DNA of 64,000 nucleotides from a virus. The notes below the pieces were generated by a model. That model did no database searches and was not told the origin of the DNA. It saw nothing but the letters and a program-made list of their open reading frames with translations. How positions within the stretch are numbered: the first letter of the stretch is position 1; every line of letters starts with the position of its first letter. This document shows, one piece after another, positions 606 to 20,014 of the stretch. The stretch is taken from the IMG/VR virus record IMGVR_UViG_3300042987_002978, positions 1-64,000 of that record; one strand, 5' to 3'. The position numbers were made by a program, and so were the translations under genes.

Positions 606-676
606 CTGCCCCTGCCACAAAAAATGGTGTTCCAGAATGTTCGGATTTATTTCGCGCTGAGCGTTCCCTTGGACCC
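606..676 (+). repeat. Dispersed 70-bp element, copy 1
   Basis: Conserved blocks in order: CTGCCCCTGCC, CAAAAAATGGTGTTCC, a 9-nt variable AT-rich spacer, GGATTTATT, then GCGTTCCCTTGG. Flanked on the right by a 12-bp GC hairpin. Confidence 0.9.
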
Positions 677-693
677 GCCCGGGGGCGCGAGGT

Positions 694-726
694 GGGCGCG
701 GCCTTACACCCCGCAAGGCCGCGCCC
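694..726 (-). terminator. GC-rich hairpin after 735-1007
   Basis: Perfect 12-bp stem (694-705 with 715-726), 9-nt loop, just after the stop codon. No U-tract follows on the minus strand. Confidence 0.6.
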
Positions 727-734
727 AGACGCTT

Positions 735-1007
735 CTATTGCGCTTGTGGCGCGTCTGTTCCGTATCCGTACTGAAACTCGTAGCACTGCTCTCCAAAGAA
801 CCCTTCTAGGAATCCGTTGGTGAACGCCATGAGTAGTTCATCGGTGAGTTGTGTTCCGTATTTCATTGCGAGCAAGACAAATGCGCCTGAGATGTGTTCC
901 TCAATTTCGCCCTGCTTGCCTTCGCGGGATTCGAGTTGGGCAAACTTACACCCAGCGTCAAACCCCATTTCGCCGACCCACGATGAGTCAGATGTGTATT
1001 CGTTCAT
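735..1007 (-). CDS. Hypothetical acidic protein, 90 aa
   Basis: No family recognised. Acidic, with two Cys and an aromatic, Gly-rich C-terminus (F-Q-Y-G-Y-G). ATG at 1007 is preceded by AAGGAGAAACACA. It is a single-gene unit with its own promoter (1055-1083), a leader hairpin (ATGAGGT/ACCTCAT with loop AATCCC) and a 12-bp hairpin after the stop. Cytosolic by composition; function unknown. Confidence 0.65.
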   Translation of the reverse strand: MNEYTSDSSWVGEMGFDAGCKFAQLESREGKQGEIEEHISGAFVLLAMKYGTQLTDELLMAFTNGFLEGFFGEQCYEFQYGYGTDAPQAQ

Positions 1008-1054
1008 TGTGTTTCTCCTTGCTGTTGTATGAGGTGGGATTACCTCATACCCTA

Positions 1055-1083
1055 ATTATAGGTGTTTGTTAGACAGTCGTCAA
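1055..1083 (-). promoter_or_regulatory. Promoter of 735-1007
   Basis: TTGACG-N17-TATAAT on the minus strand. The spacer contains GTCTAACA, half of the recurring CTGTCTAACAG operator-like palindrome. Confidence 0.75.
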
Positions 1084-1149
1084 GTCAGAACGCTCGATGT
1101 CACACATTTGTAACATTCGCCCGCTGCCTCTGCCGCCCGGGGTCGAATT

Positions 1150-1183
1150 GCCCCGCGGGGGAAGGAGGTAGAACCCGCGGGGC
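1150..1183 (-). terminator. Hairpin after 1204-1341
   Basis: Perfect 10-bp stem GCCCCGCGGG/CCCGCGGGGC with a 14-nt loop holding GGAAGGAGG on the plus strand (CCTCCTTCC on the transcribed strand). Next to it is the short CTGCCTCTGCC motif. Confidence 0.6.
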
Positions 1184-1203
1184 TTCTCGACTTTCGCCCG
1201 CCG

Positions 1204-1341
1204 TCAGTCCCACTCTCGGACTGTCGGCGCGGGCTTGCGCTTGTGGTGGATAGTCACCGCGCGCGTACGCAGTCCGTCGGCGTAAGCCTGTCGGTCTGCC
1301 GTGTTCCACGCTCGGCGTTTGTTGTGTTTGTTCTTGCTCAT
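1204..1341 (-). CDS. Small basic protein, leaderless
   Basis: A 45-residue Lys/Arg-rich protein (starts M-S-K-N-K-H-N-K-R-R). ATG at 1341 lies exactly 6 nt after the -10 hexamer TATACT, so the transcript would start at or next to the ATG and needs no Shine-Dalgarno site. The longer upstream frame would cross the promoter. Possibly nucleic-acid binding from its charge; no family recognised. Confidence 0.55.
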   Translation of the reverse strand: MSKNKHNKRRAWNTADRQAYADGLRTRAVTIHHKRKPAPTVREWD

Positions 1342-1347
1342 AAGTTT

Positions 1348-1376
1348 AGTATAACACCTTTCTAGTGTTTTCGCAA
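1348..1376 (-). promoter_or_regulatory. Promoter of leaderless gene 1204-1341
   Basis: TTGCGA-N17-TATACT, then 6 nt to ATG. Confidence 0.75.
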
Positions 1377-1411
1377 CTTGTCGGGGAAGTTTTGTTCCTG
1401 TCGCCCTGTGG

Positions 1412-1443
1412 CTGGCGGTGGGCGCTTCTCGTCCCACCGCCAG
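1412..1443 (-). terminator. Hairpin after 1452-1649
   Basis: Perfect 11-bp stem CTGGCGGTGGG/CCCACCGCCAG, 10-nt loop, 8 bp after the stop. Confidence 0.6.
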
Positions 1444-1451
1444 CCCAGCCG

Positions 1452-1649
1452 TTAGCGTACGGCTACGGCTTCTTGGGCGAACTTCCGCAGGACTTCCAGC
1501 AACTCATTCGTGTAGAAGTGAATGCTGGTCGTATTGCGGTGCTCGTCGGTAATCTCAACGGTCAGCGATGCGCTGTCGTAGGGACTGCCGTTGACGGTGA
1601 CTATTACGTCGTCCGCTTTTACGCCGTGTGCGTGTATGTAGTGGTTCAT
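1452..1649 (-). CDS. Hypothetical protein, 65 aa
   Basis: No family recognised. Predicted mixed beta/alpha: a V-I-V-T-V strand, an N-G-S turn, then a helix L-L-E-V-L-R-K. ATG at 1649 follows AAGGAGAAATAGA. The leader has the GGCAATACC box. Single-gene unit. Confidence 0.6.
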   Translation of the reverse strand: MNHYIHAHGVKADDVIVTVNGSPYDSASLTVEITDEHRNTTSIHFYTNELLEVLRKFAQEAVAVR

Positions 1650-1690
1650 TTCTATTTCTCCTTGTTGTGTTGGTATTGCCTTATGTTATT

Positions 1691-1719
1691 AGTATAACAC
1701 ACTTTCGGCAGTTTCGCAA
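1691..1719 (-). promoter_or_regulatory. Promoter of 1452-1649
   Basis: TTGCGA-N17-TATACT; leader box GGCAATACC at 1672-1680 (minus). Confidence 0.75.
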
Positions 1720-1779
1720 CTATCCGAAAGAGATTTTTTCGCCCGCTTGCCTCTGCCGCCCTTCGGCGGCTCTCGCCCT

Positions 1780-1807
1780 GGGGCTAGGTGGTTGCCCACC
1801 TAACCCC
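1780..1807 (-). terminator. Hairpin after 1825-2070
   Basis: GGGGcTAGGTGG/CCACCTAaCCCC with one C-A mismatch and a 4-nt loop; CTGCC-type motif beside it. Confidence 0.5.
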
Positions 1808-1824
1808 ATTATGGCGAGGGGGTG

Positions 1825-2070
1825 TTACACGGTTTCGGTGTAACCCTTCAAGGCAACGCCTTTACGAAGTTTGCCCATGCCGTGCTTATCCGACATTGAG
1901 CCCCAGCCGTTGCTAACTTGCTGGAATTCGTTGCCGTTCAGCACCGCCATCAGCGTGGAGTAGTGCCAGATTTCCCGACGGGTGTCGGATACCTGAACCG
2001 CTCGCCACGATGACGCTTTGAGGGTGCGCCCCGTTTTGATTTCGTTTGTGATTAGGTTTGTGATTTTCAT
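1825..2070 (-). CDS. Hypothetical protein, 81 aa
   Basis: No family recognised. A basic N-terminal half (K-T-G-R-T-L-K-A-S-S-W-R) and a Gly-rich C-terminus. ATG at 2070 follows TAGGAGGAATAAACAAA, an excellent ribosome site. Own promoter at 2093-2121. Confidence 0.6.
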   Translation of the reverse strand: MKITNLITNEIKTGRTLKASSWRAVQVSDTRREIWHYSTLMAVLNGNEFQQVSNGWGSMSDKHGMGKLRKGVALKGYTETV

Positions 2071-2092
2071 TTTGTTTATTCCTCCTAGTTTT

Positions 2093-2121
2093 AGTATAGC
2101 ATACTGTTAGACATTTAGCAA
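2093..2121 (-). promoter_or_regulatory. Promoter of 1825-2070
   Basis: TTGCTA-N17-TATACT. The spacer includes TGTCTAACAG, the operator-like motif. Confidence 0.75.
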
Positions 2122-2160
2122 CCTGAGACGCGAATTTCTGCCTCCGGCCGCCCGCCCGTT

Positions 2161-2182
2161 GGGTGGGGCTTGCGCCCCACCC
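2161..2182 (-). terminator. Hairpin after 2192-2434
   Basis: Perfect 9-bp stem GGGTGGGGC/GCCCCACCC with loop TTGC. Confidence 0.65.
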
Positions 2183-2191
2183 GTTCGGCGC

Positions 2192-2434
2192 TTAGTCCAG
2201 TTGGGGCTTTGCGCTGGTGTCGGTGTACCGCTTACCGCCACGCTCACGGGCGGGGAATAGCGGGTACGACTTTCTGCCCGTATCGGGGTCGGTGTAGGTC
2301 ACGGGCAGGAATGCGCGGGTGCGTACTCCGTTGCGGGTGACGATAGTGGCGCCTTTGCGGGCGTACTTGCGAAGCCATGCCGTATCGGGCAGGTTCATTT
2401 CGGGCATCTCACCCGAAGCGGTTAGGGTAATCAT
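2192..2434 (-). CDS. Hypothetical protein, 80 aa
   Basis: No family recognised. Rich in Arg, Thr and Pro, with a run of likely beta strands (A-T-I-V-T-R-N-G-V) and a basic C-terminal third. ATG at 2434 follows TAAGGAGAACAAA. The leader hairpin is TGAGG/CCTCA around AATCCCG. Confidence 0.6.
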   Translation of the reverse strand: MITLTASGEMPEMNLPDTAWLRKYARKGATIVTRNGVRTRAFLPVTYTDPDTGRKSYPLFPARERGGKRYTDTSAKPQLD

Positions 2435-2480
2435 TTTGTTCTCCTTAGGTTCGGTGAGGCGGGATTACCTCACTACTTAT

Positions 2481-2509
2481 ACTGTATCACAAACTAGGCA
2501 GTTTCGCAA
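2481..2509 (-). promoter_or_regulatory. Promoter of 2192-2434
   Basis: TTGCGA-N17-TACAGT with TGA just before the -10 (extended -10 type). Confidence 0.75.
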
Positions 2510-2606
2510 CTCCTGAGGCATTATTTTTGTTTCATTTGTGTTACAAGTTATTCATCACTCTGAGTGGTCGTTTCTCACGCTCCGTGGCCGCCGGCTCCCG
2601 GCAATG

Positions 2607-2680
2607 CTGCCTCCGCCCCCCCGAAAAATGGTGTTCCTTCACAATTGGATTTATTCCGTATGCGGCGTTTCCTTGATGGC
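2607..2680 (+). repeat. Dispersed 70-bp element, copy 2
   Basis: CTGCCTCCGCC, GAAAAATGGTGTTCC, 9-nt spacer, GGATTTATT, GCGTTTCCTTGATGG. First block in the TCC form. Confidence 0.85.
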
Positions 2681-2743
2681 ACCCGCCCGCGCGCGGCACT
2701 CTCCCACTATCTCCATTATGGCGTAGGGGTGTTACACGGTTAT

Positions 2744-2786
2744 CTGTCGGGCGGGCGTTCACCTTAGGCTGTTGCCCACCCGACAG
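2744..2786 (-). terminator. Hairpin after 2800-3081
   Basis: CTGTCGGGcGGGC pairs with GCCcaCCCGACAG around a 17-nt loop. Confidence 0.5.
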
Positions 2787-2799
2787 AACTCCGTTGTGC

Positions 2800-3081
2800 T
2801 TAGGCGTTGGCGTACAAGGCTTTGGATACCTCGTCGCTGGCGTGGCGTCGCGCGTCGTCTTCGGCAGTCTCGCCGTAGAACGCCTGCTTGTAGATACGCT
2901 TGCCAGCGTCGTAGATAGTCACCATCGTTGCCGGGATTACGAACCCGTCAGCGTAAGTCATGTCTGCCTCGTAGTAGCACACGGTGACTTCGTTATTCCA
3001 CCCTTTGGGGTAGGCTTCCGAACTCACTTCGCACCACGCGGTAGTCAGTCGCGCGCCTTTGGGCATTCGTTTGAGTGTCAT
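2800..3081 (-). CDS. Hypothetical protein, 93 aa
   Basis: No family recognised. Looks globular with several aromatic residues (V-C-Y-Y-E-A-D-M) and an amphipathic C-terminal helix. ATG at 3081 follows AAGGAGAACAGA; the longer frame would include the leader hairpin. Single-gene unit with promoter 3128-3156. Confidence 0.6.
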   Translation of the reverse strand: MTLKRMPKGARLTTAWCEVSSEAYPKGWNNEVTVCYYEADMTYADGFVIPATMVTIYDAGKRIYKQAFYGETAEDDARRHASDEVSKALYANA

Positions 3082-3127
3082 TCTGTTCTCCTTGCTGTTC
3101 GTGTGGGCGGGATTGCCCACTACTATT

Positions 3128-3156
3128 ATTGTATCACACTTATTCTGTTCTCGCAA
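3128..3156 (-). promoter_or_regulatory. Promoter of 2800-3081
   Basis: TTGCGA-N17-TACAAT; leader hairpin GTGGGC/GCCCAC around AATCCC(G). Confidence 0.75.
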
Positions 3157-3204
3157 CCTGAGACACAAACTTTTAGTTTCTGCCTCCGCCCGCCCTATCG
3201 GGTT

Positions 3205-3230
3205 GGTCGGGCAGGTTGCCCTGCCCGACC
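3205..3230 (-). terminator. Hairpin after 3239-3499
   Basis: Perfect 11-bp stem GGTCGGGCAGG/CCTGCCCGACC with loop TTGC. Confidence 0.65.
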
Positions 3231-3238
3231 GTATCCCG

Positions 3239-3499
3239 TTAGGCGTTTGCGGGTTCGTTTATGCGGGTGACGTTCTCAGCGGGGAACGCAGGCTTCACCG
3301 TGTGGGCGAAGTAGCGACCGACCGATGCTTGCGTCAGCATTGGCACGACCAGCGTCAGCGGGCAACCCGTGTAGGCGTACTGACTGCCGTTCTGAAAGCC
3401 GACAAACAAAGTGCCGATACCGCTTTCGTCGTCGGAATAGAACGCCCATTTGGCGATTGCCGTGCTGTTCGGCGTTGTCTGGTGGATTGTGATTTTCAT
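3239..3499 (-). CDS. KTSB-domain protein (second)
   Basis: An 86-residue protein. Residues 28-75 (L-F-V-G-F-Q-N-G-S-Q-Y-A-Y and A-S-V-G-R-Y-F-A) match the KTSB pattern more closely than the copy at 43-375, and both begin M-K-I-T. ATG at 3499 gives an 8-nt spacing to GAGG; an ATG 6 nt upstream is too close to it. Two promoters lie upstream (3552-3580, 3625-3653). Confidence 0.7.
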   Translation of the reverse strand: MKITIHQTTPNSTAIAKWAFYSDDESGIGTLFVGFQNGSQYAYTGCPLTLVVPMLTQASVGRYFAHTVKPAFPAENVTRINEPANA

Positions 3500-3551
3500 T
3501 CTCATTACCTCTTTCATTGGGTTGTAGTGGGCGGGATTGCCCACTACTTAG

Positions 3552-3580
3552 ATTGTAGCGACTGTTAGACAGATTTACAA
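3552..3580 (-). promoter_or_regulatory. Proximal promoter of 3239-3499
   Basis: TTGTAA-N17-TACAAT. The palindrome CTGTCTAACAG sits between -35 and -10. Confidence 0.75.
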
Positions 3581-3624
3581 CCTGCCCGACAGTTTTTTAT
3601 TCGGTGGGTTGCCCCACTAATAAT

Positions 3625-3653
3625 AGGATACCATACTGTTAGACACTTGTCTA
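3625..3653 (-). promoter_or_regulatory. Distal promoter of 3239-3499
   Basis: TAGACA-N17-TATCCT with GTCTAACAG in the spacer. A GTGGG/CCCAC hairpin follows in the leader. Confidence 0.5.
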
Positions 3654-3711
3654 GTCCTGAGTGTTACAAGTGTGTTACAAGGTTTGTGCTTGTTCGCACT
3701 TTCACAAACTT

Positions 3712-3780
3712 TGCCCCTGCCACAAAAAATGGTGTTTCCTAATTATTGGATTTATTCTGCGGCGGCGATTTCCTTGGCCT
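3712..3780 (+). repeat. Dispersed 70-bp element, copy 3
   Basis: TTGCCCCTGCC, CAAAAAATGGTGTTTCC, variable spacer, GGATTTATT, GCGATTTCCTTGG. Confidence 0.85.
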
Positions 3781-3796
3781 CCGGCCCGCTGGCGTT

Positions 3797-3830
3797 GCGT
3801 GCCGGCACCAAGGAGACGATGCCGGCACGC
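3797..3830 (-). terminator. Hairpin after 3838-3993
   Basis: Perfect 10-bp stem GCGTGCCGGC/GCCGGCACGC; the 14-nt loop carries AAGGAG on the plus strand. Confidence 0.6.
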
Positions 3831-3837
3831 TTGCCAA

Positions 3838-3993
3838 TCAGAGGAATTCGATTGGGTCGCGGTCCGAGATTTCCGAGACATCGCAATCGCGTAAGCACGC
3901 TTGCGCTTCCCAGAAGTCTTCTTCCGTGAGTGGCGCGAGGCCTTCTTGCACATCTTCTGGCAAGTAGTCCCACCACGTTAGTTTTTTATCCAT
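3838..3993 (-). CDS. Small acidic protein, 51 aa
   Basis: Starts M-D-K-K-L-T-W-W-D-Y-L-P-E and is strongly acidic (D/E-rich) throughout. ATG at 3993 follows GGGAGAACCCA at good spacing. It has its own promoter (4015-4043) and a 10-bp hairpin after the stop, like the longer neighbours, which is the main argument that this short frame is real. No family recognised. Confidence 0.6.
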   Translation of the reverse strand: MDKKLTWWDYLPEDVQEGLAPLTEEDFWEAQACLRDCDVSEISDRDPIEFL

Positions 3994-4014
3994 TGGGTTC
4001 TCCCTTCTATTATC

Positions 4015-4043
4015 AGTGTATCACACTATTTTATGTTTTGCAA
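4015..4043 (-). promoter_or_regulatory. Promoter of 3838-3993
   Basis: TTGCAA-N17-TACACT. Confidence 0.7.
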
Positions 4044-4086
4044 CTATTTATGCCAATTTGGCCTCCGCCGGGCCGCGGGCTCGGCC

Positions 4087-4320
4087 CTACCTTTCGGTAG
4101 AGACGAGGCCAGCGGGCACCAGCGAATTCACCAGCACTAGGCCATAGAACGCGCCTGTAATCGCGTCTTTGACGAAGCAGTGGCCCATAGTGCCATTCTT
4201 TGGCGCGCCTGCACCGCCAGAGCATTTCACGACGAGCGTGCCGCGCTTTGGCTGGTGCTTGCGGGCATCAAAGATGTCCATGCCTACGGGTTCGTATCGG
4301 TACTGTCTTACTTTTGCCAT
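4087..4320 (-). CDS. Hypothetical protein, 77 aa
   Basis: No family recognised. Basic N-terminal half, then a Gly-rich segment (K-C-S-G-G-A-G-A-P-K-N-G-T) and a hydrophobic C-terminus (F-Y-G-L-V-L-V-N). ATG at 4320 follows TAGGAGAACCCA. The leader hairpin TAGGGC/GCTCTA around AATCCC contains base changes on both arms relative to other leaders. Confidence 0.6.
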   Translation of the reverse strand: MAKVRQYRYEPVGMDIFDARKHQPKRGTLVVKCSGGAGAPKNGTMGHCFVKDAITGAFYGLVLVNSLVPAGLVSTER

Positions 4321-4368
4321 TGGGTTCTCCTATTCCGTTGAGTAGAGCGGGATTGCCCTACTAATTAC

Positions 4369-4397
4369 AGTGTATCACACTATTTTAGTTTTGCCAA
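4369..4397 (-). promoter_or_regulatory. Promoter of 4087-4320
   Basis: TTGGCA-N17-TACACT. It overlaps the last codons of 4375-4695. Confidence 0.7.
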
Positions 4398-4695
4398 CCT
4401 CTACGGCCTTGTCAAAGTCACATTCCTCAAACCCCGTCAAACGGCGCTCTGCGAGGATACGGTCACGCACAGCCTCACGGTCGGCGCTGTCACCGTCAAA
4501 CGGGAACAGCGGATTTGGGTCGGTGAGATGGGCGTTCACCGCACTCACTATTTCCATTTCGTAGGCGAATGGATACAGTGCGTCTGGGTGCTCCAGCGAA
4601 TAGAACTCACGGCAGTAGTCCGTGAATTCCTCTACTGATGTCCATTCTGGTATTTCGCGTCCAGCGTGCGGGCTGGTTCCTAGTGTGTGTGTCAT
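4375..4695 (-). CDS. Hypothetical acidic protein, leaderless
   Basis: 106 residues, acidic, with repeated aromatic patches (Y-C-R-E-F-Y-S-L, Y-P-F-A-Y-E). ATG at 4695 lies exactly 6 nt after a perfect TATAAT -10, so translation is probably leaderless. Its stop lies inside the promoter of the next gene. No family recognised. Confidence 0.6.
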   Translation of the reverse strand: MTHTLGTSPHAGREIPEWTSVEEFTDYCREFYSLEHPDALYPFAYEMEIVSAVNAHLTDPNPLFPFDGDSADREAVRDRILAERRLTGFEECDFDKAVEVGKTKIV

Positions 4696-4701
4696 ACTCT
4701 C

Positions 4702-4730
4702 ATTATAGGGACTGTTAGACAGATTAGCAA
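4702..4730 (-). promoter_or_regulatory. Promoter of leaderless gene 4375-4695
   Basis: TTGCTA-N17-TATAAT, 6 nt to ATG; CTGTCTAACAG lies in the spacer. Confidence 0.8.
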
Positions 4731-4803
4731 CAGTATTAGTATTACAATCTGATTACAGCCGGCCGGCCACGCTGCGTGGTGGGCCACCACCGTGAGTGAA
4801 CCC

Positions 4804-4878
4804 TTGCCCCTGCTCCCGCGCAAGAAATGGTGTTCCAAGATAATCGGATTTATTCAGCGCACTGCGTTTCCCTTGGCC
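4804..4878 (+). repeat. Dispersed 70-bp element, copy 4
   Basis: TTGCCCCTGC, CAAGAAATGGTGTTCC, 9-nt spacer, GGATTTATT, GCGTTTCCCTTGG. Confidence 0.85.
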
Positions 4879-4898
4879 TCTGCCCGGCGGCGGGTAGT

Positions 4899-4927
4899 GG
4901 CTGGTGGGGAGGAGAGCCCCACCAGCC
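4899..4927 (-). terminator. Hairpin after 4935-5345
   Basis: Perfect 11-bp stem GGCTGGTGGGG/CCCCACCAGCC, loop AGGAGAG (plus strand). The same stem recurs at 6219-6251 with a different loop. Confidence 0.65.
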
Positions 4928-4934
4928 GAACCGC

Positions 4935-5345
4935 TTAGAGGTAGCGAGCGACTGCCCCATACGAGGAAGTACGGACATACTCCTCGTCGGAGAGTTCCAG
5001 CACGCGAATTGCGTTGCTGAGTTCCTCTACTGCTGCCCTGTTGGAGTGCTCGCAGAAACTATTGTCCTTCTTGGGAAGGGTAATTTTGTGCGAGAAGGTG
5101 ACGGTCACTTCCTCAAACTCGTTCGTGTCGTTACGGTACGAGTAGGGGAAAGACACTTCCTTCGGGGTCAGTTTGCCTGACTTGACGAGTGCCGCCACCG
5201 ACTTCTTGATTTCGGCGGTTGCCTTCGTTCGCGCCTTCTCTGCGTTGGCGTAGTCCTTGGCTTCCTGTTCTTTCTTGGCTAGTGCTGCTTTGAGTGCCGC
5301 GAGCAATTTCGCCTTCGTCACTCTCACATTTACTGTCTTACTCAT
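4935..5345 (-). CDS. Hypothetical helical protein, 136 aa
   Basis: The N-terminal 60 residues are Ala/Lys/Glu-rich and predicted as a long, possibly coiled-coil helix; the middle is beta-like (E-V-T-V-T-F-S-H-K-I), followed by another helix. ATG at 5345 follows AAAGGAATACAACATA. Single-gene unit. No family recognised. Confidence 0.65.
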   Translation of the reverse strand: MSKTVNVRVTKAKLLAALKAALAKKEQEAKDYANAEKARTKATAEIKKSVAALVKSGKLTPKEVSFPYSYRNDTNEFEEVTVTFSHKITLPKKDNSFCEHSNRAAVEELSNAIRVLELSDEEYVRTSSYGAVARYL

Positions 5346-5401
5346 TATGTTGTATTCCTTTCCTGTTTGGTTTCTAGTGGTGCGGTTGCCCCACTAGTAT
5401 T

Positions 5402-5430
5402 ATTGTATCACACGCTTTGGAGTTTCGCAA
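5402..5430 (-). promoter_or_regulatory. Promoter of 4935-5345
   Basis: TTGCGA-N17-TACAAT with TGA before the -10; leader hairpin AGTGGGG/CACCACT (imperfect). Confidence 0.75.
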
Positions 5431-5432
5431 CC

Positions 5433-5621
5433 TTACGGCGTGGGAGTGTTGTGGAGTTCGTACTCCAAATTCAGTTGTGCCGCTGCCCGCCGCGCTTCTT
5501 GCTCGGTGGCAAACACTTGTTCGCAGTTCTGCGGCTCGTTCTCGTCGCAGAACCACAGTTCCCAGCCCTCGCGGGTCGGGAATACTTGGTAGTTGTATGG
5601 GTACGGGTGTTTTGTTCTCAT
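5433..5621 (-). CDS. Hypothetical protein, leaderless, 62 aa
   Basis: Contains F-P-T-R-E-G-W-E-L-W-F then a C-E-Q-V-F-A-T-E-Q-E-A motif, resembling small viral domains of beta hairpin plus helix. ATG at 5621 is exactly 6 nt after the -10 TACACT, so it is probably leaderless. Its promoter lies inside the 3' end of 5626-5760. Confidence 0.55.
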   Translation of the reverse strand: MRTKHPYPYNYQVFPTREGWELWFCDENEPQNCEQVFATEQEARRAAAQLNLEYELHNTPTP

Positions 5622-5625
5622 AGTT

Positions 5626-5760
5626 CTAGTGTATCACACTTTCGGGAGTTTCGCAACCTTCTAGCGTTTCGCGGCACTCTTGGCAGAGGCCCCCGCTGAG
5701 GGCCGACCATTCGTCGCCGCAGTTCGTGCAGGCCTGCTCGTTGCCAAATTCTGGGTTCAT
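5626..5760 (-). CDS. Small two-CxxC zinc-finger-like protein
   Basis: 44 residues with C-T-N-C and C-Q-E-C spaced by about 13 residues, a likely four-Cys zinc site. ATG at 5760 overlaps the TGA of 5757-6104 (ATGA), so translational coupling is likely. Its last 10 codons contain the -35 and -10 of the next promoter, an unusual overlap. No larger family recognised. Confidence 0.5.
   Translation of the reverse strand: MNPEFGNEQACTNCGDEWSALSGGLCQECRETLEGCETPESVIH
5628..5656 (-). promoter_or_regulatory. Promoter of leaderless gene 5433-5621
   Basis: TTGCGA-N17-TACACT with TGA before the -10; 6 nt to ATG. Confidence 0.75.
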
Positions 5761-6104: not shown

Positions 6105-6141
6105 TGTGTTTCCTTTCCTGTTGGTATTGCCTGATAATCTA

Positions 6142-6170
6142 AGTGTATCACACTCACGCGAGTTTTGCAA
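6142..6170 (-). promoter_or_regulatory. Promoter of 5757-6104
   Basis: TTGCAA-N17-TACACT with TGA before the -10. Confidence 0.75.
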
Positions 6171-6940: not shown

Positions 6941-6969
6941 TTGCTTTCTGCGTCAGTTTGTGCTACAAT
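6941..6969 (+). promoter_or_regulatory. Plus-strand promoter upstream of element copy 5
   Basis: TTGCTT-N17-TACAAT on the plus strand, facing away from the neighbouring genes. A transcript would start near 6976, form GCAGCCC/GGGCTGC and CTGCC/GGCAG hairpins, run through element copy 5 and meet the 7118-7151 hairpin. No plausible gene lies on it, so a small RNA is possible. Confidence 0.5.
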
Positions 6970-7036
6970 GGTAGTAGCGGGCAAGATACGAGCAGCCCTG
7001 TGCCGGTCGCCCGGGGCTGCCCCTGAGAGGCAGTTC

Positions 7037-7110
7037 CTGCCTCCGCCCTCCGCAAAAAATGGTGTTCCTTGAATATTGGTTTTATTCGGCGCGGCGATTT
7101 CCCTTGGGCC
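7037..7110 (+). repeat. Dispersed 70-bp element, copy 5
   Basis: CTGCCTCCGCC, GCAAAAAATGGTGTTCC, 9-nt spacer, GGTTTTATT, GCGATTTCCCTTGG. Confidence 0.9.
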
Positions 7111-8971: not shown

Positions 8972-9040
8972 CTGCCCCTGCCACAAAAAATGGTGTTCCA
9001 AGAGAATTGGTTTTATTCTGCTCACGCCGTTCCCTTGGCC
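8972..9040 (+). repeat. Dispersed 70-bp element, copy 6
   Basis: CTGCCCCTGCC, CAAAAAATGGTGTTCC, 9-nt spacer, GGTTTTATT, CCGTTCCCTTGG. Preceded by a CCGGGG/CCCCGG hairpin (8955-8970). Confidence 0.9.
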
Positions 9041-10253: not shown

Positions 10254-10339
10254 CTATCTACGAAACTTTCTTTCGTCCGTCTCGCATACTTACAATGTAT
10301 AGGGTAAATACTGAAACCACAACCTGTTTGGAAAATTAT

Positions 10340-10360
10340 TTATCCACAGGCTGTGGATAA
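10340..10360. other. Inverted pair of perfect DnaA boxes
   Basis: TTATCCACA (10340-10348) and TGTGGATAA (10352-10360) form one palindrome 3 bp apart. TTATnCACA is the DnaA box consensus. The flank GGCTGTGGATAACTT also occurs beside copy 1. Confidence 0.65.
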
Positions 10361-10391
10361 CTTTTGCCCGGTGGCCCCTGCCCTTGGGTTT

Positions 10392-10462
10392 TGCCCCTGA
10401 CCCAAAAAATGGTGTTCCAGAAATATCGGATTTATTTGGGTTCAGGCCGTTCCCTTGGGCCT
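10392..10462 (+). repeat. Dispersed 70-bp element, copy 7
   Basis: TTGCCCCTGAC, CAAAAAATGGTGTTCC, 9-nt spacer, GGATTTATT, CCGTTCCCTTGG. Confidence 0.9.
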
Positions 10463-12833: not shown

Positions 12834-12902
12834 CTGCCCCTGGCACAAAAAATGGTGTTCCTTGGAATTTGATTTAATTTCGCTTTTGCCGTTCCCTTAG
12901 GC
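12834..12902 (+). repeat. Dispersed 70-bp element, copy 8
   Basis: CTGCCCCTGGC, CAAAAAATGGTGTTCC, 8-9-nt spacer, GATTTAATT (one extra A), CCGTTCCCTTAGG. Preceded by a TGCCGG/CCGGCA hairpin (12808-12827). Confidence 0.85.
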
Positions 12903-14722: not shown

Positions 14723-14758
14723 TGTGTTGCCTTTCTGTTGAGTTGTGTTCATAACTAG

Positions 14759-14787
14759 ATTGTACCACATATTTCGTCGTATGACAA
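14759..14787 (-). promoter_or_regulatory. Promoter of the 14722-14173 unit
   Basis: TTGTCA-N17-TACAAT. Confidence 0.7.
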
Positions 14788-14792
14788 CCTGC

Positions 14793-14823
14793 GGTGGGGT
14801 TTGGGATGCAATCCCTCCCCACC
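14793..14823 (-). terminator. Nested hairpin after 14901-15365
   Basis: GGTGGGG/CCCCACC enclosing GGGAT/ATCCC (loop GCA). A second, imperfect repeat TAGTGGCTGGG/CCCTAGCCATTA lies at 14832-14896. Confidence 0.6.
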
Positions 14824-14900
14824 ACAGGCCGCTAGTGGCTGGGTCATGTTGCCGTGTAAATAAGAGGGGATACGCGCAGCCAAGCCCTAGCCATTAGCGA

Positions 14901-15365
14901 CTACCACGATGAGTGGTAGTAGAACTCCCACTCGTCAGGCATAGACAGACAGTTGTCAATGACGGCAACCGTGTGCTTGATGTCGTGGAAATAGTATTCG
15001 TCGTACTCGTACGAGCCGAAGAAGAAGCCCTGTTGAGTTGGCAGTTCTTCGTCTGCCACTGCTGGCTGGAGAAGAACCTTCTGGCACAAAGCCTTCAGTT
15101 CTTCCAACTTCTCACGCCCGACATAGGCGTAGCGACAGTCGTCCTCGCCGTTCTGGCAGTTGTCCACGAACCATTGGTGAATGGCGTTCGCCTTTCGCCA
15201 ATAGCCGATGGAGACTTCCAACTGAATACTCGGAAGGTCGGTTTTCACATGCTTTGCGATACCCGACTTCTTCAGGAGTTCGTGGAACTCTTTTTTATTC
15301 TCTTCTGTTCGCCACTCCGCACCTGAGTAATACTTCTTGGCGGAAAGGTACATATCTAATCCCAT
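14901..15365 (-). CDS. Conserved phage protein of unknown function
   Basis: 154 residues. M-G-L-D-M-Y-L at the start, V-S-I-G-Y-W-R-K-A-N-A-I-H-x-W-F-V in the middle, D-D-C-R-Y and the C-terminal G-F-F-F-G-S-Y-E-Y-D motif are shared by a widespread phage family that has no assigned function. ATG at 15365 follows AGAAAGATAAAACACT. Single-gene unit. Confidence 0.7.
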   Translation of the reverse strand: MGLDMYLSAKKYYSGAEWRTEENKKEFHELLKKSGIAKHVKTDLPSIQLEVSIGYWRKANAIHQWFVDNCQNGEDDCRYAYVGREKLEELKALCQKVLLQPAVADEELPTQQGFFFGSYEYDEYYFHDIKHTVAVIDNCLSMPDEWEFYYHSSW

Positions 15366-15410
15366 AGTGTTTTATCTTTCTGTGTTGAGTTGGTTATTGC
15401 TGTTACTTAG

Positions 15411-15439
15411 ATTGTATCACTTATCTTCGGACTTTGCAA
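15411..15439 (-). promoter_or_regulatory. Promoter of 14901-15365
   Basis: TTGCAA-N17-TACAAT with TGA before the -10. Confidence 0.75.
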
Positions 15440-15446
15440 CCTCTGG

Positions 15447-15683
15447 TTAGAGGATGCCCACTTCCTGCCACTTGTGGAGTTCTTTAGCGGAGAGGAAAGA
15501 CGGTGCTTTCCCTTCTACTTCTTCGGCATCCCACGGCTTGTCCCAGTCAAGAGGACAGATGTCCACGACTTTAGAACTATCGAAGTTGCCCCATGCTTTC
15601 TCAAGGGCATCTTCCACGGACTCCGCCTCAATCAACCACTGAAGGTCAAGGTCAACGGTCTGCCTGATAATAAATTGTTTCAT
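15447..15683 (-). CDS. Hypothetical acidic protein, 78 aa
   Basis: Begins M-K-Q-F-I-I-R-Q-T-V-D-L-D-L-Q-W-L-I-E-A then E-D-A-L-E-K-A-W: a beta strand followed by the V-x-D-A-L-x-K-A helix found in many small phage proteins. ATG at 15683 follows GAAAGAAGAAACCA. Its long leader (15700-15784) has nested complementary arms. Confidence 0.6.
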   Translation of the reverse strand: MKQFIIRQTVDLDLQWLIEAESVEDALEKAWGNFDSSKVVDICPLDWDKPWDAEEVEGKAPSFLSAKELHKWQEVGIL

Positions 15684-15784
15684 TGGTTTCTTCTTTCTGT
15701 TGAGTTGATGTTGGTGTGGGGACGGGCTTTTTGGTCTAGAACCTCAACCCTTTACAGCAGACGATGTCATCTGCCCACAACTAC

Positions 15785-15813
15785 ATTGTACCACATTGTA
15801 GCACACTTGGCAA
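15785..15813 (-). promoter_or_regulatory. Promoter of 15447-15683
   Basis: TTGCCA-N17-TACAAT. Confidence 0.7.
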
Positions 15814-15814
15814 C

Positions 15815-16120
15815 CTACGAAACCTCGATTTCGTAGAAAGCCTCGGATTCTGCCGGCTTGTAGGTCACGAAATACCCGATGCGGTTGACGAGGTGGTAGC
15901 CGTTGGTGACTATCGTGCCGTCATCGCCGTCGATGTATGTCCAGACATTGTCAGGCTTGGCCTTGACATACGCAAGAACAAAGTCCAGTTCTTTCCCGTA
16001 TGTCTCAAACATAAGTCCGTAATCGCCGTCATTAAACGACGCATCTTTGTCAAAGACATTGACGATTGGCTCGTATTTCTCGCACCACTTGTCAAAGGGC
16101 ATCTTGATAAGAACGGTCAT
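15815..16120 (-). CDS. Hypothetical protein, 101 aa
   Basis: A mixed alpha/beta protein with F-D-K-W-C-E-K-Y near the start and several Asp-Gly turns (Y-I-D-G-D-D-G-T-I-V). ATG at 16120 overlaps the TGA of the gene before it. No family recognised. Confidence 0.6.
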   Translation of the reverse strand: MTVLIKMPFDKWCEKYEPIVNVFDKDASFNDGDYGLMFETYGKELDFVLAYVKAKPDNVWTYIDGDDGTIVTNGYHLVNRIGYFVTYKPAESEAFYEIEVS

Positions 16121-16287
16121 TCGTCGTCCCCGATTTCTTCGTAGTCTTCCACTTCCCAAGTGATTTCGCTTCGCTTGGCGTTGGTGAACATGTCTGCGAA
16201 CAAATCCATAGCCTCGTCTTCGGTCTCTGCCTCAACGAAGTCGGAGAAGTACGCCGACAAGTGATAACGGTATTTTGTTTTACTCAT
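16117..16287 (-). CDS. Small acidic protein, 56 aa
   Basis: M-S-K-T-K-Y-R-Y-H-L-S-A-Y then E-A-E-T-E-D-E-A-M-D-L-F and a D/E-rich tail; similar in plan to 15447-15683 (strand, then a D-E-A helix). ATG at 16287 follows GAAAGACAACCAA. First of a two-gene unit. Confidence 0.6.
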   Translation of the reverse strand: MSKTKYRYHLSAYFSDFVEAETEDEAMDLFADMFTNAKRSEITWEVEDYEEIGDDE

Positions 16288-16320
16288 TTGGTTGTCTTTC
16301 TGTGATTGGGTTATGATTAC

Positions 16321-16349
16321 ATTGTAGCATACTCTAGCATGCTTTACAA
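16321..16349 (-). promoter_or_regulatory. Promoter of 16117-16287/15815-16120
   Basis: TTGTAA-N17-TACAAT; its -35 overlaps the stop of 16344-16649. Confidence 0.75.
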
Positions 16350-16649
16350 CTTGTGCCACCGGTATTCTTCGTTTTTATTCACTACATCTTGGCTACAAGT
16401 ACCGACTACTTCCAGCGTGTCGCCGTCAATGACTCGGTAGCAGGTCTCGCACAGCCAGTGCTTGCCGTCCCACTCTCCGATAGTCGGCTCGCAGCGTTCG
16501 CCTATTTCGCTACAAGAGGCGAAGCCGTCTCCGTCTGGTTTGTTGCCGCAGCGGCACACCCACCAGTCGCTTGCTTCCTCAATGATGTATTCACGAGTAA
16601 GAGCAGGGTGGGCGAGGAGCATGTCCGTCCAGTGAGGATTATTTTCCAT
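16344..16649 (-). CDS. Cys-rich, probably zinc-binding protein
   Basis: 101 residues with C-R-C-G, two further Cys (A-S-C-S, E-R-C-E) and C-E-T-C-Y, giving at least six Cys suited to one or two zinc sites. ATG at 16649 lies inside the previous gene's end (11-bp overlap). Co-transcribed with 16639-16887. Family unknown. Confidence 0.6.
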   Translation of the reverse strand: MENNPHWTDMLLAHPALTREYIIEEASDWWVCRCGNKPDGDGFASCSEIGERCEPTIGEWDGKHWLCETCYRVIDGDTLEVVGTCSQDVVNKNEEYRWHKL

Positions 16650-16887
16650 TCTTCGCCGCCCAGTACGCTTTTGCTTCTGCTTCTTGGTCGTCAGTACCGT
16701 CCGAGAGAACTATCTCAAACTGGTGAAGGCCATTGATGATGCGGAAGGTCTCCGCATTGGCAGGGCTGTCCCAAGTGAGGGCATGATGGAGGGAACTGGT
16801 GGTTCCGCCTCGGTCTCCCAAGAGTTTTGCCGCGAATCGCCGGTATCCCTTGTCGTTTGTTTTCTGTAATAGGTATTGTGTTGTCAT
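16639..16887 (-). CDS. Hypothetical protein, leaderless, 82 aa
   Basis: Begins M-T-T-Q-Y-L-L-Q-K and contains a W-D-S-P-A-N-A-E-T-F motif, then a C-terminal acidic/Ala helix. ATG at 16887 is exactly 6 nt after the -10 TATACT of a promoter with a perfect TTGACA, so leaderless and strong. First gene of a two-gene unit. No family recognised. Confidence 0.6.
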   Translation of the reverse strand: MTTQYLLQKTNDKGYRRFAAKLLGDRGGTTSSLHHALTWDSPANAETFRIINGLHQFEIVLSDGTDDQEAEAKAYWAAKNGK

Positions 16888-16893
16888 AACCCA

Positions 16894-16922
16894 AGTATAC
16901 CGGATGTCAGACAACTTGTCAA
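16894..16922 (-). promoter_or_regulatory. Promoter of leaderless gene 16639-16887
   Basis: TTGACA-N17-TATACT: five or six of six at both boxes; 6 nt to ATG. Confidence 0.85.
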
Positions 16923-17000
16923 CCTTTTTCCGAGATTGTTCAGAATTTCACAAACACTGTTAGGTATTTTATTTGAGACACTTTTGTCTTTTTGTCTCAT

Positions 17001-17070
17001 CTGCCCCTGTGCCAAAAAATGGTGTTCCAGATATTTCGGATTTATTTTGTGCGGAGCCGTTCCCTTAGGC
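17001..17070 (+). repeat. Dispersed 70-bp element, copy 9
   Basis: CTGCCCCTGTG, CAAAAAATGGTGTTCC, 9-nt spacer, GGATTTATT, CCGTTCCCTTAGG. The TTA is the stop codon (TAA) of 17065-17301, so the element reaches into a gene. Confidence 0.9.
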
Positions 17071-17301
17071 CTGGTCGACGTCCCGCACCACGCACAGTGC
17101 GCCGGTCTCCCGGATGCGCCGGCGCAGCAGGTTGGTTTCCTCCTGCGGTATGCAGATGTGCGCGATGATGGACCAGCCGTTGCCGCGCTTGGCCTCGTGC
17201 AGGTGAACATCGGCGGTATCGTCGTGCTCTCGAATAAGATTTGCCAGCGTCACGCCCTCACGGTACGTGTTCACAGAAATACTCAGAGTGAGTGGCTTCA
17301 T
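17065..17301 (-). CDS. Hypothetical protein, 78 aa
   Basis: Pattern of a small alpha/beta domain: L-T-L-S-I-S-V strand, a helix with a conserved E-G-V, H-D-D-T-A-D-V-H, I-I-A-H-I-C-I strand, then an Arg-rich helix. ATG at 17301 follows AAGGTGCTGGC. No promoter directly upstream, so it belongs to the run 18509 to 17065. No family recognised. Confidence 0.6.
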   Translation of the reverse strand: MKPLTLSISVNTYREGVTLANLIREHDDTADVHLHEAKRGNGWSIIAHICIPQEETNLLRRRIRETGALCVVRDVDQA

Positions 17302-17310
17302 GCCAGCACC

Positions 17311-17553
17311 TTACCCCACCCAGCGCCCAAAGACGGTGTAGCCGTCTTCTTCGCGCCGGACAATCCACTCGGTACCCGGGTAACGTTTTTTATATTGCTG
17401 TGCTTTGGAGTGGCCGGTGCGCGCGATGTTGCCGGTACAGTACACCGCCCACTCGCCTGGTTTCTCCTTGAGTTTGTCCACGAAGTTGGCGACCTGAAAC
17501 GGGCTGCCGTTCTTCGGGCCCGGCGGCTGCCGGAATTCAGTTTTCTTAGCCAT
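17311..17553 (-). CDS. Hypothetical basic protein, 80 aa
   Basis: Starts M-A-K-K-T-E-F-R-Q-P-P-G-P and has A-R-T-G-H-S-K-A-Q-Q-Y-K-K-R-Y-P-G-T-E-W, a basic helix then a W-x-V strand. ATG at 17553 overlaps the end of 17546-18049 by 8 bp. Could bind nucleic acid from its charge; no family recognised. Confidence 0.6.
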   Translation of the reverse strand: MAKKTEFRQPPGPKNGSPFQVANFVDKLKEKPGEWAVYCTGNIARTGHSKAQQYKKRYPGTEWIVRREEDGYTVFGRWVG

Positions 17554-18049
17554 TTAGTTTCTCTCTTGCTCTGTCTTCTTTGGGGTCACGGACTTCCCAC
17601 TGGCCGCGCTGAATCTTGCGGAAGTACGGTGATGTCTTCACGTAGTTCAGTACGGTCTGGTAGGAGAATCCTGATATCTCCACGAGTTGCTCGGTCGTCA
17701 CCTCGTGGTATGTGTTCTTCTTGGCCCACTCTTCGAGGGCCTTCCACTTGTCCGCGCGCTTTACTGGCTTGGCTTCCTCGGCCTCGACCAGTTTTTGTTT
17801 TCCCAGAAACGACGGAATAAGTATTTCTATGACGTTGCGAGAAAGCGAGTACTCGCCCATGAACCGCACAGGATTGCCCTGACTGCCGCGCGCCTGCCAC
17901 GCCTGGATGACGTAGAGGCCCCGGACGAGTTCTGCGATGCGCTGCTGCTCGTCACGGGGGACCTTGAAGGCAGTCCCGTGCCGCTCGACGGCGCTCTTCC
18001 AGAGGTCGGCTTGGTAGTTGTGTACGACTTCGTCACTGATTGTTTTCAT
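17546..18049 (-). CDS. Putative winged-helix DNA-binding protein
   Basis: 167 residues. The C-terminal third (Y-H-E-V-T-T-E-Q-L-V-E-I-S-G-F-S-Y-Q-T-V-L-N-Y-V) looks like a helix-turn-helix followed by a wing; the N-terminal part is helical. ATG at 18049 follows an excellent GGAGGCACTAT site and overlaps the stop of the preceding zinc-ribbon gene (ATGA). Specific role unknown; a regulator is the simplest reading. Confidence 0.6.
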   Translation of the reverse strand: MKTISDEVVHNYQADLWKSAVERHGTAFKVPRDEQQRIAELVRGLYVIQAWQARGSQGNPVRFMGEYSLSRNVIEILIPSFLGKQKLVEAEEAKPVKRADKWKALEEWAKKNTYHEVTTEQLVEISGFSYQTVLNYVKTSPYFRKIQRGQWEVRDPKEDRAREKLNG

Positions 18050-18291
18050 ATAGTGCCTCCCCATGAGTAAACACCGTCGATTAAAGCCATTTTCCAGAAG
18101 GCATCTCCCGACAATCCGCCGAGACACACCTGACAAACCCACGCGCCGCTTTCCTGCTCGATGAGAACAGGCCTGGGCTGCGCGCACGAATCGCACTCAC
18201 TGCCTGGTTCGTGCCCGACAGTCACGGTGTATGTGACGAGCGGGGTCGACTTACGCGAGTGACGACTGGGCCTTTTCTTATGGCGGGCCAT
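18046..18291 (-). CDS. Small zinc-ribbon-like protein
   Basis: 81 residues: a basic N-terminus (M-A-R-H-K-K-R-P-S-R-H-S-R-K) then E-C-D-S-C and C-Q-V-C-L-G-G, a four-Cys zinc site. An ATG 12 bp upstream (18303) is an alternative start with closer spacing to AAAGG. Overlaps the upstream membrane gene by about 70-80 bp. Confidence 0.55.
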   Translation of the reverse strand: MARHKKRPSRHSRKSTPLVTYTVTVGHEPGSECDSCAQPRPVLIEQESGAWVCQVCLGGLSGDAFWKMALIDGVYSWGGTI

Positions 18292-18509
18292 ATACGCATC
18301 CATCCTTTCAAGAGTTGGAACGGGGTTGGGAAATAGTTGAATCGCAGGACTTTCCAAATCGATGCGTGAACCGCAGCAATTGGATAAATGATTGCCCACA
18401 TGTACATGCCAAAGGCCAGTGGCCAAGGCAGGCCCATGGCGGGCGAATTGAATGCGAACGTCGCGATGATTCCGTACTGGAACCATCTATTCGCAAAAAG
18501 TTTTTTCAG
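18222..18509 (-). CDS. Possible membrane protein with CTG start
   Basis: The frame 18509 to 18222 encodes two hydrophobic stretches (roughly G-I-I-A-T-F-A-F and Y-M-W-A-I-I-Y-P-I-A-A-V) and a basic C-terminus, as in a small two-helix membrane protein. No ATG/GTG/TTG starts it, but GGAGG lies 7 nt before a CTG at 18507-18509, ideal spacing. If only ATG starts are accepted, the gene begins at 18437 and loses the first helix. The reading is uncertain. Confidence 0.4.
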   Translation of the reverse strand: MKKLFANRWFQYGIIATFAFNSPAMGLPWPLAFGMYMWAIIYPIAAVHASIWKVLRFNYFPTPFQLLKGWMRIWPAIRKGPVVTRVSRPRSSHTP

Positions 18510-18573
18510 GAAGTTACCTCCATTGAGTTGTTATCACATTCTATCATATGGGTGTTACGGTCGAATTCCAACG

Positions 18574-18783
18574 TCAGACGTAAAGGTCCTTCCCGTTGCA
18601 GGAAAGCCAGTGCTCCAGCCAGTCGGTGGCCTGCCGGTACATGACGCCTTCGTACATCGGGTCAAAGTCGCCGCCGGAAATCTCTGGGAAACTCTCCACG
18701 ACGCTCGCCCAGAAGTGTTCGAGCGCTCTATCGACCGCTGCCTCAAGCCTGGCTTCCATCTCGATTTTGAGTATTGATGTCAT
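18574..18783 (-). CDS. Hypothetical helical protein, 69 aa
   Basis: M-T-S-I-L-K-I-E-M-E-A-R-L-E-A-A-V-D-R-A-L-E then D-W-L-E-H-W; an amphipathic helix with a W-rich end. ATG at 18783 follows GAAAGGCAAGACA. Single-gene unit; the last of the minus-strand small-gene region. No family recognised. Confidence 0.6.
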   Translation of the reverse strand: MTSILKIEMEARLEAAVDRALEHFWASVVESFPEISGGDFDPMYEGVMYRQATDWLEHWLSCNGKDLYV

Positions 18784-18812
18784 TGTCTTGCCTTTCATTA
18801 GGTTATACCTTG

Positions 18813-18841
18813 ATTGTATCATGCTCTACCACACGTCACAA
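18813..18841 (-). promoter_or_regulatory. Promoter of 18574-18783
   Basis: TTGTGA-N17-TACAAT with TGA before the -10. Confidence 0.75.
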
Positions 18842-18885
18842 CCTCCCGTGAAAGATTTCTGAGAAAAATTTCTTCCGGTAAAATG

Positions 18886-18914
18886 TTGGTTTCCGCGCCC
18901 GCTGCCGGTATAAT
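18886..18914 (+). promoter_or_regulatory. Plus-strand promoter before copy 10 and 19035
   Basis: TTGGTT-N17-TATAAT on the plus strand; start near 18921. The leader of 19035-19568 therefore contains element copy 10 in sense orientation. Confidence 0.65.
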
Positions 18915-18957
18915 TGATATCAACATGATGAATAAATACTCTTCGTTATTTCATTTT

Positions 18958-19029
18958 CTGCCCCTGTCCAAAAAAATGGTGTTCCAGCCAGAATGGTTTT
19001 ATTTTGCGCACCGCCGTTTCCTTGAGGCC
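18958..19029 (+). repeat. Dispersed 70-bp element, copy 10
   Basis: CTGCCCCTGTC, CAAAAAAATGGTGTTCC, 9-nt spacer, GGTTTTATT, CCGTTTCCTTGAGG. Ends 5 bp before the ATG of 19035-19568. Here the element is co-oriented with the gene. Confidence 0.85.
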
Positions 19030-19034
19030 CTCTG

Positions 19035-19568
19035 ATGGCCCGGCCGCGCGACAGTCAACGCAGCCGGCTCTACGCGTCCGAGTGGGAGGTGTTCGGATGG
19101 TCAAAGGAGAAGTTCCGAGACATGGGGGAACTGGAGGAGTATCTCTGGAAAGTTTTAGAGCATCATGTGGTCCAGCGAAAATACCAAATGGCGCGGGACA
19201 TCGTATCTGGCACGCAGAGACTGAAGATATCCAACGGAGCCGGACACCGCAGGGCCTTGACCATACGACAGGAAGACAAAATCATCGTCTCATTCCCGCG
19301 CAAGATGCGCAGTGAGTGGGTGGTCGTGCACGAAATCGCCCACGTACTCACTCCTGCTGACGTCGCCGGACACGGAAGAGAGTTCTGCCGCACTTATCTG
19401 GAACTCGTAGGACTATTCTTCGGCGTCGAAACAAGAAACAAACTTAAGGCCGCGATGAAAAAACATAACTGCAAGTACTCAAAGACACACACACGCTGGA
19501 AAGGACCCATTCCTCAGGAGGAAAAAGACGCAATGCTCGCTAGATTGTTGGCCGGACGGAACAAATGA
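19035..19568 (+). CDS. TIGR04338-type metallohydrolase
   Basis: 177 residues. R-P-R-D-S-Q-R-S-R-L-Y-A-S-E-W at the start, then H-E-I-A-H at about residue 98 and a G-H-G-R-E-F segment, giving a zinc-binding H-E-x-x-H plus third His ligand. This matches the actinobacterial putative metallohydrolase family TIGR04338. Substrate unknown. ATG at 19035 has no clear Shine-Dalgarno site; the 3' part of element copy 10 lies where it should be. First gene of a plus-strand pair. Confidence 0.75.
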   Translation: MARPRDSQRSRLYASEWEVFGWSKEKFRDMGELEEYLWKVLEHHVVQRKYQMARDIVSGTQRLKISNGAGHRRALTIRQEDKIIVSFPRKMRSEWVVVHEIAHVLTPADVAGHGREFCRTYLELVGLFFGVETRNKLKAAMKKHNCKYSKTHTRWKGPIPQEEKDAMLARLLAGRNK

Positions 19569-19942
19569 CGAATCACAAGTGGAACATCCTCAACATCATG
19601 CGGTTCTATAACCGAATCGGCAAGCAATTCAACGCCAAGGTGTACCTGGACTTCATCACACCGCACGAAGGTTCGAACGTAAAGAACAAGAAAGCACCGC
19701 CGCTGTCTGAAATCTATACATACATCCGTCGATACATCGCCAACGGATGGTGTGAGAGAGCCGGAGACAACGTCGTGATGACTCAGAAGGGTCTGATGGC
19801 CCTGATGGAGTGGGAAAAGAAGACCGCACTCGCACGCGCAGAGAAGCGCGAGCAGGATTATCTCGCGAAAGGGTTCGCGCGACCGAATACGCGCGGGCCC
19901 GACGGAAGTTATTTACCGGGAACACGCAAACCGCGCAAATAA
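19565..19942 (+). CDS. Putative winged-helix-like protein, 125 aa
   Basis: L-S-E-I-Y-T-Y-I-R-R-Y-I-A-N-G-W-C-E-R followed by G-D-N-V-V-M-T-Q-K-G-L-M-A-L resembles a winged helix (helix, then wing). The C-terminus is basic and Pro/Gly-rich. ATG overlaps the TGA of the metallohydrolase gene. DNA binding is a guess from the pattern. Confidence 0.55.
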   Translation: MTNHKWNILNIMRFYNRIGKQFNAKVYLDFITPHEGSNVKNKKAPPLSEIYTYIRRYIANGWCERAGDNVVMTQKGLMALMEWEKKTALARAEKREQDYLAKGFARPNTRGPDGSYLPGTRKPRK

Positions 19943-19959
19943 TCCGGCGGTCAATCCGT

Positions 19960-20014
19960 CCGTCCGTCAAAAAAATGGTGTTCCAGACGGAATGGATTTA
20001 ATTTCGCCTTTTCT
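19960..20014 (+). repeat. Dispersed 70-bp element, copy 11 (degenerate)
   Basis: CAAAAAAATGGTGTTCC, 9-nt spacer and GGATTTAATTTCGC are present; the CTGCCCC block and CCGTTCCCTTGG block are lost. It lies between the convergent ends of 19942 and 20075. Confidence 0.75.

Follow-up and report, generated by a model that had tools for sequence, protein, structure and literature searches.

A one-way bipartite repeat arrayed between small leftward genes in a freshwater phage of actinobacteria

A sequence of 65 to 70 bases recurs near the left end of the window (the whole stretch of DNA analyzed here, comprising the first 64 kb of an IMG/VR record of 104,851 bases), and all of its copies point the same way. 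What does this element do, and is it read as DNA, as RNA, or as protein?

Occurrence and architecture of the repeat

When the window was searched with CAAAAAATGGTGTTCC at up to three mismatches, 11 matches were obtained between positions 606 and 20014, all on the plus strand, against 0.9 expected, and no shuffle reached 11. The initial annotation had described eleven same-orientation copies, and its coordinates agreed with ours to within a few bases. It had also reported no copy from 20 to 64 kb, which is correct, although the array extends over the record end: a 12th copy (copy 0) was found at 104637-104651, again on the plus strand, and none was found on the minus strand of the whole record. 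The copies of this phage (G000) occupy only about 20 kb of its 105 kb. Copies 0 and 1 lie 0.8 kb apart across the record ends (L026, window 1-600) versus 5.9 kb in the relative G009, so the source record may miss about 5 kb at the junction.

A scoring matrix built on the core separated true copies clearly from other sequences. With a cut-off of at least 16, G000 gave 12 matches, all on the plus strand, the next best scoring 4.6, and the gap was similar in G007, G002, and G009. In G018, a few intermediate scores were obtained on the same strand, two of them from known variant copies; these reached 11.2, the ceiling for sequences below the cut-off across the five genomes.

The core consists of CCC-AAAA[A/T]ATGGTGTTCC, exactly 9 bp, and GG[A/T]TTTATT and is followed, after a floating 8 to 15 bp, by CGTTYCCTTGG. 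The consensus over all contigs is TGCCYCTG..CCC-AAAA[A/T]ATGGTGTTCC-N9-GG[A/T]TTTATT[T/C]-N8..15-[G/C]CGTTYCCTTGG. The spacer between blocks 1 and 2 is AT-rich and variable in sequence, as had been observed, but its length, previously given as 8 to 9 nt, is nine bases in every collected copy; the part that varies in length is the gap from block 2 to CGTTCCCTTGG. Constant blocks at fixed spacing, recurring in relatives, bear out the earlier suggestion of a bipartite site. The copies in the window are as follows.

606 to 672, plus strand: copy 1, nine-base spacer AGAATGTTC
2607 to 2675, plus strand: copy 2, spacer TTCACAATT
3711 to 3777, plus strand: copy 3, a GTTTC variant, spacer CTAATTATT
4804 to 4876, plus strand: copy 4, spacer AAGATAATC; G009 has almost the same core and 3' block
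7037 to 7107, plus strand: copy 5, spacer TTGAATATT
8972 to 9038, plus strand: copy 6, spacer AAGAGAATT; lost in G009
10391 to 10458, plus strand: copy 7, spacer AGAAATATC; upstream of the leftward promoters of a DUF932 gene
12834 to 12901, plus strand: copy 8, spacer TTGGAATTT; block 2 degenerate
17001 to 17069, plus strand: copy 9, spacer AGATATTTC
18958 to 19027, plus strand: copy 10, spacer AGCCAGAAT; directly upstream of a rightward SprT-like gene, conserved in seven genomes
19967 to 20014, plus strand: copy 11, spacer AGACGGAAT; end copy just past the rightward operon, conserved in seven genomes

The 3' block of copy 9, CCCTTAGG, contains a stop codon, as first reported; it is that of the minus-strand gene at 17065-17301. 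In copy 11, the CTGCC block is missing and the 3' block is degenerate; every relative shows the same altered form of this copy. In nine copies from G001, G004, G017, and G018, ATGGT is kept, the 3' blocks usually are kept, and GTTCC is replaced. Tandem pairs of elements, 67 to 73 bp apart, occur once each in G004 and G018; the G018 pair (L161:915-1045, 67 bp apart) lies directly 3' of the stop codon of a small gene.

CTGCCYCYGCC, originally listed as a block of the 70-bp element, proved to be a separate motif. The short word CTGCCYCYG has 13 copies on the plus strand and none on the minus strand of window positions 1-21000, and 6 of the 13 stand without the long core.

1124 to 1134, plus strand: short form CTGCCTCTGCC without the core
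Starts at 1747, 2138, 3180, 6187, and 8017, plus strand: other CTGCCYCYGCC-type short words without the core

Gene context and distribution among relatives

The source phage is a freshwater virus of actinobacteria. It is a tailed phage with an HK97-type capsid, portal, terminase, SSB, exonuclease, and class II ribonucleotide reductase, and it carries a WhiB gene; whiB serves as an actinophage marker (PMC6802176). For one of its proteins, the closest cultured matches are actinophages. Relatives were gathered by an exact-pattern scan of IMG/VR plus follow-ups, which yielded ten further contigs, mostly of freshwater type. Altogether, 79 copies were counted in 11 contigs (one matrix hit per place), and in each contig a single strand bears all of the copies, which point against the prevailing direction of the genes.

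Small leftward genes follow one another in the array region, most of them having a promoter of their own (TTGCRAAA-N17-TGTGATACAnT), and the elements lie in the intergenic spaces between these units, on their 3' side. The largest overlap of any of the 79 copies with a called gene is 8 bp. Fifty-seven copies are flanked on both sides by genes that run against the element, 8 sit just upstream of a rightward gene, 7 sit just downstream of one, and the remaining 7 adjoin a contig end. Seven of the 8 copies before a gene and all 7 of those after one flank a single rightward operon.

19035 to 19942, plus strand: rightward two-gene operon (SprT-like protein and 125-aa protein), with copies 10 and 11 at its ends

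In seven genomes, both ends of this operon carry a copy, and a comparison of its leader across these seven showed the element to be the main invariant stretch. The strand of the element is unchanged there, confirming that its orientation is independent of local gene direction, and this argues for recognition as DNA rather than as RNA. Neither random placement or orientation nor conservation confined to coding sequence, either of which the initial annotation would have taken as refutation, was seen in the relatives.

Promoters also are distributed unevenly around the element. Within about 220 bp, 39 of 65 copies have a leftward sigma70-like promoter on their far side, compared with a background of 19% for random stretches, and 4 of 65 have one on their near side; the distance from element to promoter is 58 to 176 bp, often 60 to 175 bp. 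Rightward promoters lie to the left of 8 of the 65 copies, including copies 5 and 10; the promoter at 18886, ahead of copy 10, is present in three genomes.

Several further features of the region were recorded. At window 6941-7037, a strong rightward promoter conserved with copy 5 in several relatives is followed by no rightward gene, making this region a candidate small RNA. The leftward promoters of the array (1083, 2121, 3580, 4730, 6906, 8001, and 8916) are of two types, one with an internal TGTCTAACA word that probably is the operator of a repressor. An inverted DnaA-box pair, TTATCCACAGGCTGTGGATAA (TTATCCACA...TGTGGATAA), lies at 10336-10356, just left of copy 7, and is a candidate replication origin; the pair also is present beside copy 7 in G001, G002, G007, and G009, and copies 0 and 1 also have TGTGGATAA boxes nearby. 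At window 26138-29001, two ParB-like proteins (439 and 566 aa) are encoded next to each other.

In order to examine presence and absence, relatives were picked by their DUF932 protein and not by the element. The element was found at all 6 loci whose DUF932 protein shares at least 68% identity with that of the source phage and at 0 of 74 loci at 55% identity or less; an equivalent of copy 7 is present in all relatives holding the DUF932 locus. GTDB species genomes gave one match only, in a Bdellovibrio MAG, which is roughly what 20 fixed bases would yield by chance, and a host origin was rejected on this basis. The element was not found in cultured phages (INPHARED), and the literature search turned up analogous repeats, none of which is this element. 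More distant relatives (L093, L099, L117, L118, L123, L124, and L141) carry their own repeats of unrelated sequence in the same region: TGTTCCACGTGGAACA in up to 10 copies, CATTACAGAAACT in 6 to 7, and GGGATGCCCGCTAGGGCA in 6. Such repeats would be expected if every lineage has its own regulator and site.

Gene order is collinear between G000 and G009, and the ends of insertions and deletions lie away from the elements. Copy 6 is present in G000, G001, G002, and G007 and absent from G009, which retains a hairpin and a short CCCCTGCTCCCGCC in its place; this was not a clean excision. The proposal that short forms are sites into which a 55-bp module was inserted is therefore reversed in this one clear case, with copy 6 ancestral and at least one short form a remnant of loss. 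It also follows that no single copy need be essential.

Candidate functions of the element

Could the element be a short open reading frame? Reading from its conserved ATG gives MVFxxx[WR][IFV]Y, and the nine-base spacer, the invariant ATG, and the divergent copies of G001 and G017, which still read M-V-hydrophobic, are compatible with this. However, stops in the variable codons occur at chance frequency (5 in-frame stops observed versus 5.9 in shuffles), block 3 is read in different frames, and the G018 variants break the pattern. Coding was rejected and is scarcely credible. A role as RNA, in which the motif sits in the 3' ends of leftward mRNAs or in the body of a rightward small RNA and is bound unfolded by a protein or an RNA, has more in its favor. 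Strong hairpins adjoin most copies while the core itself is unstructured (folding z scores near -0.3, i.e., no excess stability), and rightward promoters precede copy 5 (6941, several genomes) and copy 10 (18886, three genomes). Yet such promoters are limited to 8 of 65 copies, no conserved fold was found on either strand and no match in Rfam, a tRNA/tmRNA search gave none, and the strand does not flip with the transcript at copies 10 and 11. We consider an RNA-level element unlikely, and the earlier idea of a plus-strand small RNA is weakened by the lack of a conserved fold and the small number of copies with a rightward promoter. An enhancer or operator whose bound protein activates or represses the next leftward promoter, 60 to 175 bp away, would account for the excess of promoters on the far side (39 of 65 copies against a 19% background), and several array promoters hold the second operator-like word, TGTCTAACA. 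The spacing between element and promoter is variable, though (58 to 176 bp), copy 11 has no leftward promoter beyond it, and many array promoters have no element, which leaves this explanation unlikely.

Two other explanations appeal to the absolute orientation. A signal of genome polarity that serves replication or packaging, such as an initiator site or a polar fork barrier, would be expected to ignore gene direction, as the element does, and the inverted DnaA-box pair beside copy 7 is conserved in relatives. But the copies are confined to about 20 kb of 105 kb, and their orientation does not change across the DnaA-box pair, as it would if they mirrored a bidirectional fork from that candidate origin; we regard this as quite improbable. 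The other is site-specific recombination, which had been raised at the outset, or a mobile module such as an integron cassette or miniature element. In its favor, direct repeats bracket gene blocks in one orientation, tandem pairs occur in G004 and G018, and copy 6 is missing from one relative. No tyrosine or serine recombinase (PF00589 and PF00239) was found in six genomes, and indel ends miss the elements; on these grounds recombination and cassette shuffling are disfavored. Collinear gene order, the untidy loss of copy 6, and a core far more conserved than expected of a drifting mobile element also tell against it, and this explanation is very improbable.

Since the element is noncoding, lacks a conserved fold as RNA, and keeps its strand whichever way the local transcript runs, an asymmetric, protein-bound DNA site fits best. 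The fixed 9-bp spacing with constant flanks, the single strand per genome, and the intergenic placement all favor this reading. Most likely, a viral protein lands on the element and keeps the transcription of neighboring genes apart, and that protein probably is phage encoded. The putative protein would read two DNA contacts about 19 bp apart and, once bound, may act directionally on RNA polymerase. A directional block of leftward polymerase is suggested by the single orientation against the dominant leftward transcription, which is kept at the rightward operon. Leftward transcription would be blocked or insulated between units, and leftward antisense transcription would be kept from running through the SprT operon.

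The specific proposal of a stoperator-like directional insulator of leftward transcription is a tentative one, and several observations count against it. The strong hairpins beside most copies may make another terminator unnecessary, the element is far larger than the 13-bp stoperator, a single protein would not usually read a third block whose position shifts by several bases, and GTTCC is replaced in copies of G001, G004, G017, and G018. Further, the search for a cognate protein identified none. A phage sigma factor was rejected as the partner (no Sigma70_r4 match above the cut-off in six genomes), and the co-occurrence search was uninformative because element-free relatives share too few genes. 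The most conserved small protein of the array (17311-17553) has a predicted fold of moderate confidence with no significant PDB match. Integrases and resolvases are signs of a conventional lysogeny module, and neither was found in the six genomes. With similar caution, the element may represent a new family of large, polar, bipartite protein-DNA sites that form a one-way barrier to RNA polymerase or replication forks in a phage early region, with orientation set by the genome and a binding protein of their own.

Comparison with known phage repeats

The 13-bp stoperator sequence is of the GATAGAGTGTCAAG type, and the element core, ATGGTGTTCC-N9-GGWTTTATT, is unrelated to it. In cluster A mycobacteriophages (L5 and TipsytheTRex), a monomeric repressor reads these asymmetric sites, reversal of which abolishes repression, and more than 20 of them are spread across the genome in orientations that follow the direction of transcription (PMC9283540). 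Like stoperators, the element is asymmetric, occupies many intergenic places (79 copies here), and has an orientation fixed relative to the main direction of transcription, being always antisense to the dominant gene direction in the 11 contigs. Unlike stoperators, which have a known repressor, it is 65 to 70 bp long with a 9-bp spacer and is confined to about 20 kb.

Cluster EC Microbacterium phages, which are lytic, have an 18-bp asymmetric intergenic repeat in 12 copies, located 21 to 30 bp upstream of start codons in the sense orientation (PMC7302621). These phages are distant relatives of the source phage through DUF932. Both repeats are asymmetric, similarly oriented, and intergenic, with 12 copies in both phages, but the element is located past the 3' ends of leftward genes, and the two sequences are unrelated. 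The SAS repeats of cluster K mycobacteriophages (11 to 19 copies, mostly in one orientation) lie 3 to 7 bp before start codons in the sense direction and have an extended form, ESAS, an inverted repeat, at about half of the sites (PMC3203893). The short and long forms described here recall this extension; unlike SAS/ESAS, 57 of 79 elements lie between two genes that run against them, and there is no inverted repeat. The element also differs from integron attC and tyrosine or serine recombinase sites, having no recombinase in six genomes and indel ends that miss it, and from the structured RNAs of Rfam, having no covariance-model match and no conserved fold.

The element shares an intergenic, one-way, multicopy character with known actinophage repeats and differs from them in sequence, size, spacing, and position; because of these differences, we claim membership in no named family. 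Dispersed one-way repeats recur across actinophage lineages with unrelated sequences and are mostly unexplained. The element described here is large and sharply delimited: it has 79 copies, an exact spacer, and, in the rightward operon flanked by a copy on either side, an internal control. These properties make it possible to test directly if repeats of this kind work at the DNA or RNA level, and which direction of transcription they affect. For metagenome surveys, the element also is a marker of a coherent freshwater actinophage lineage.
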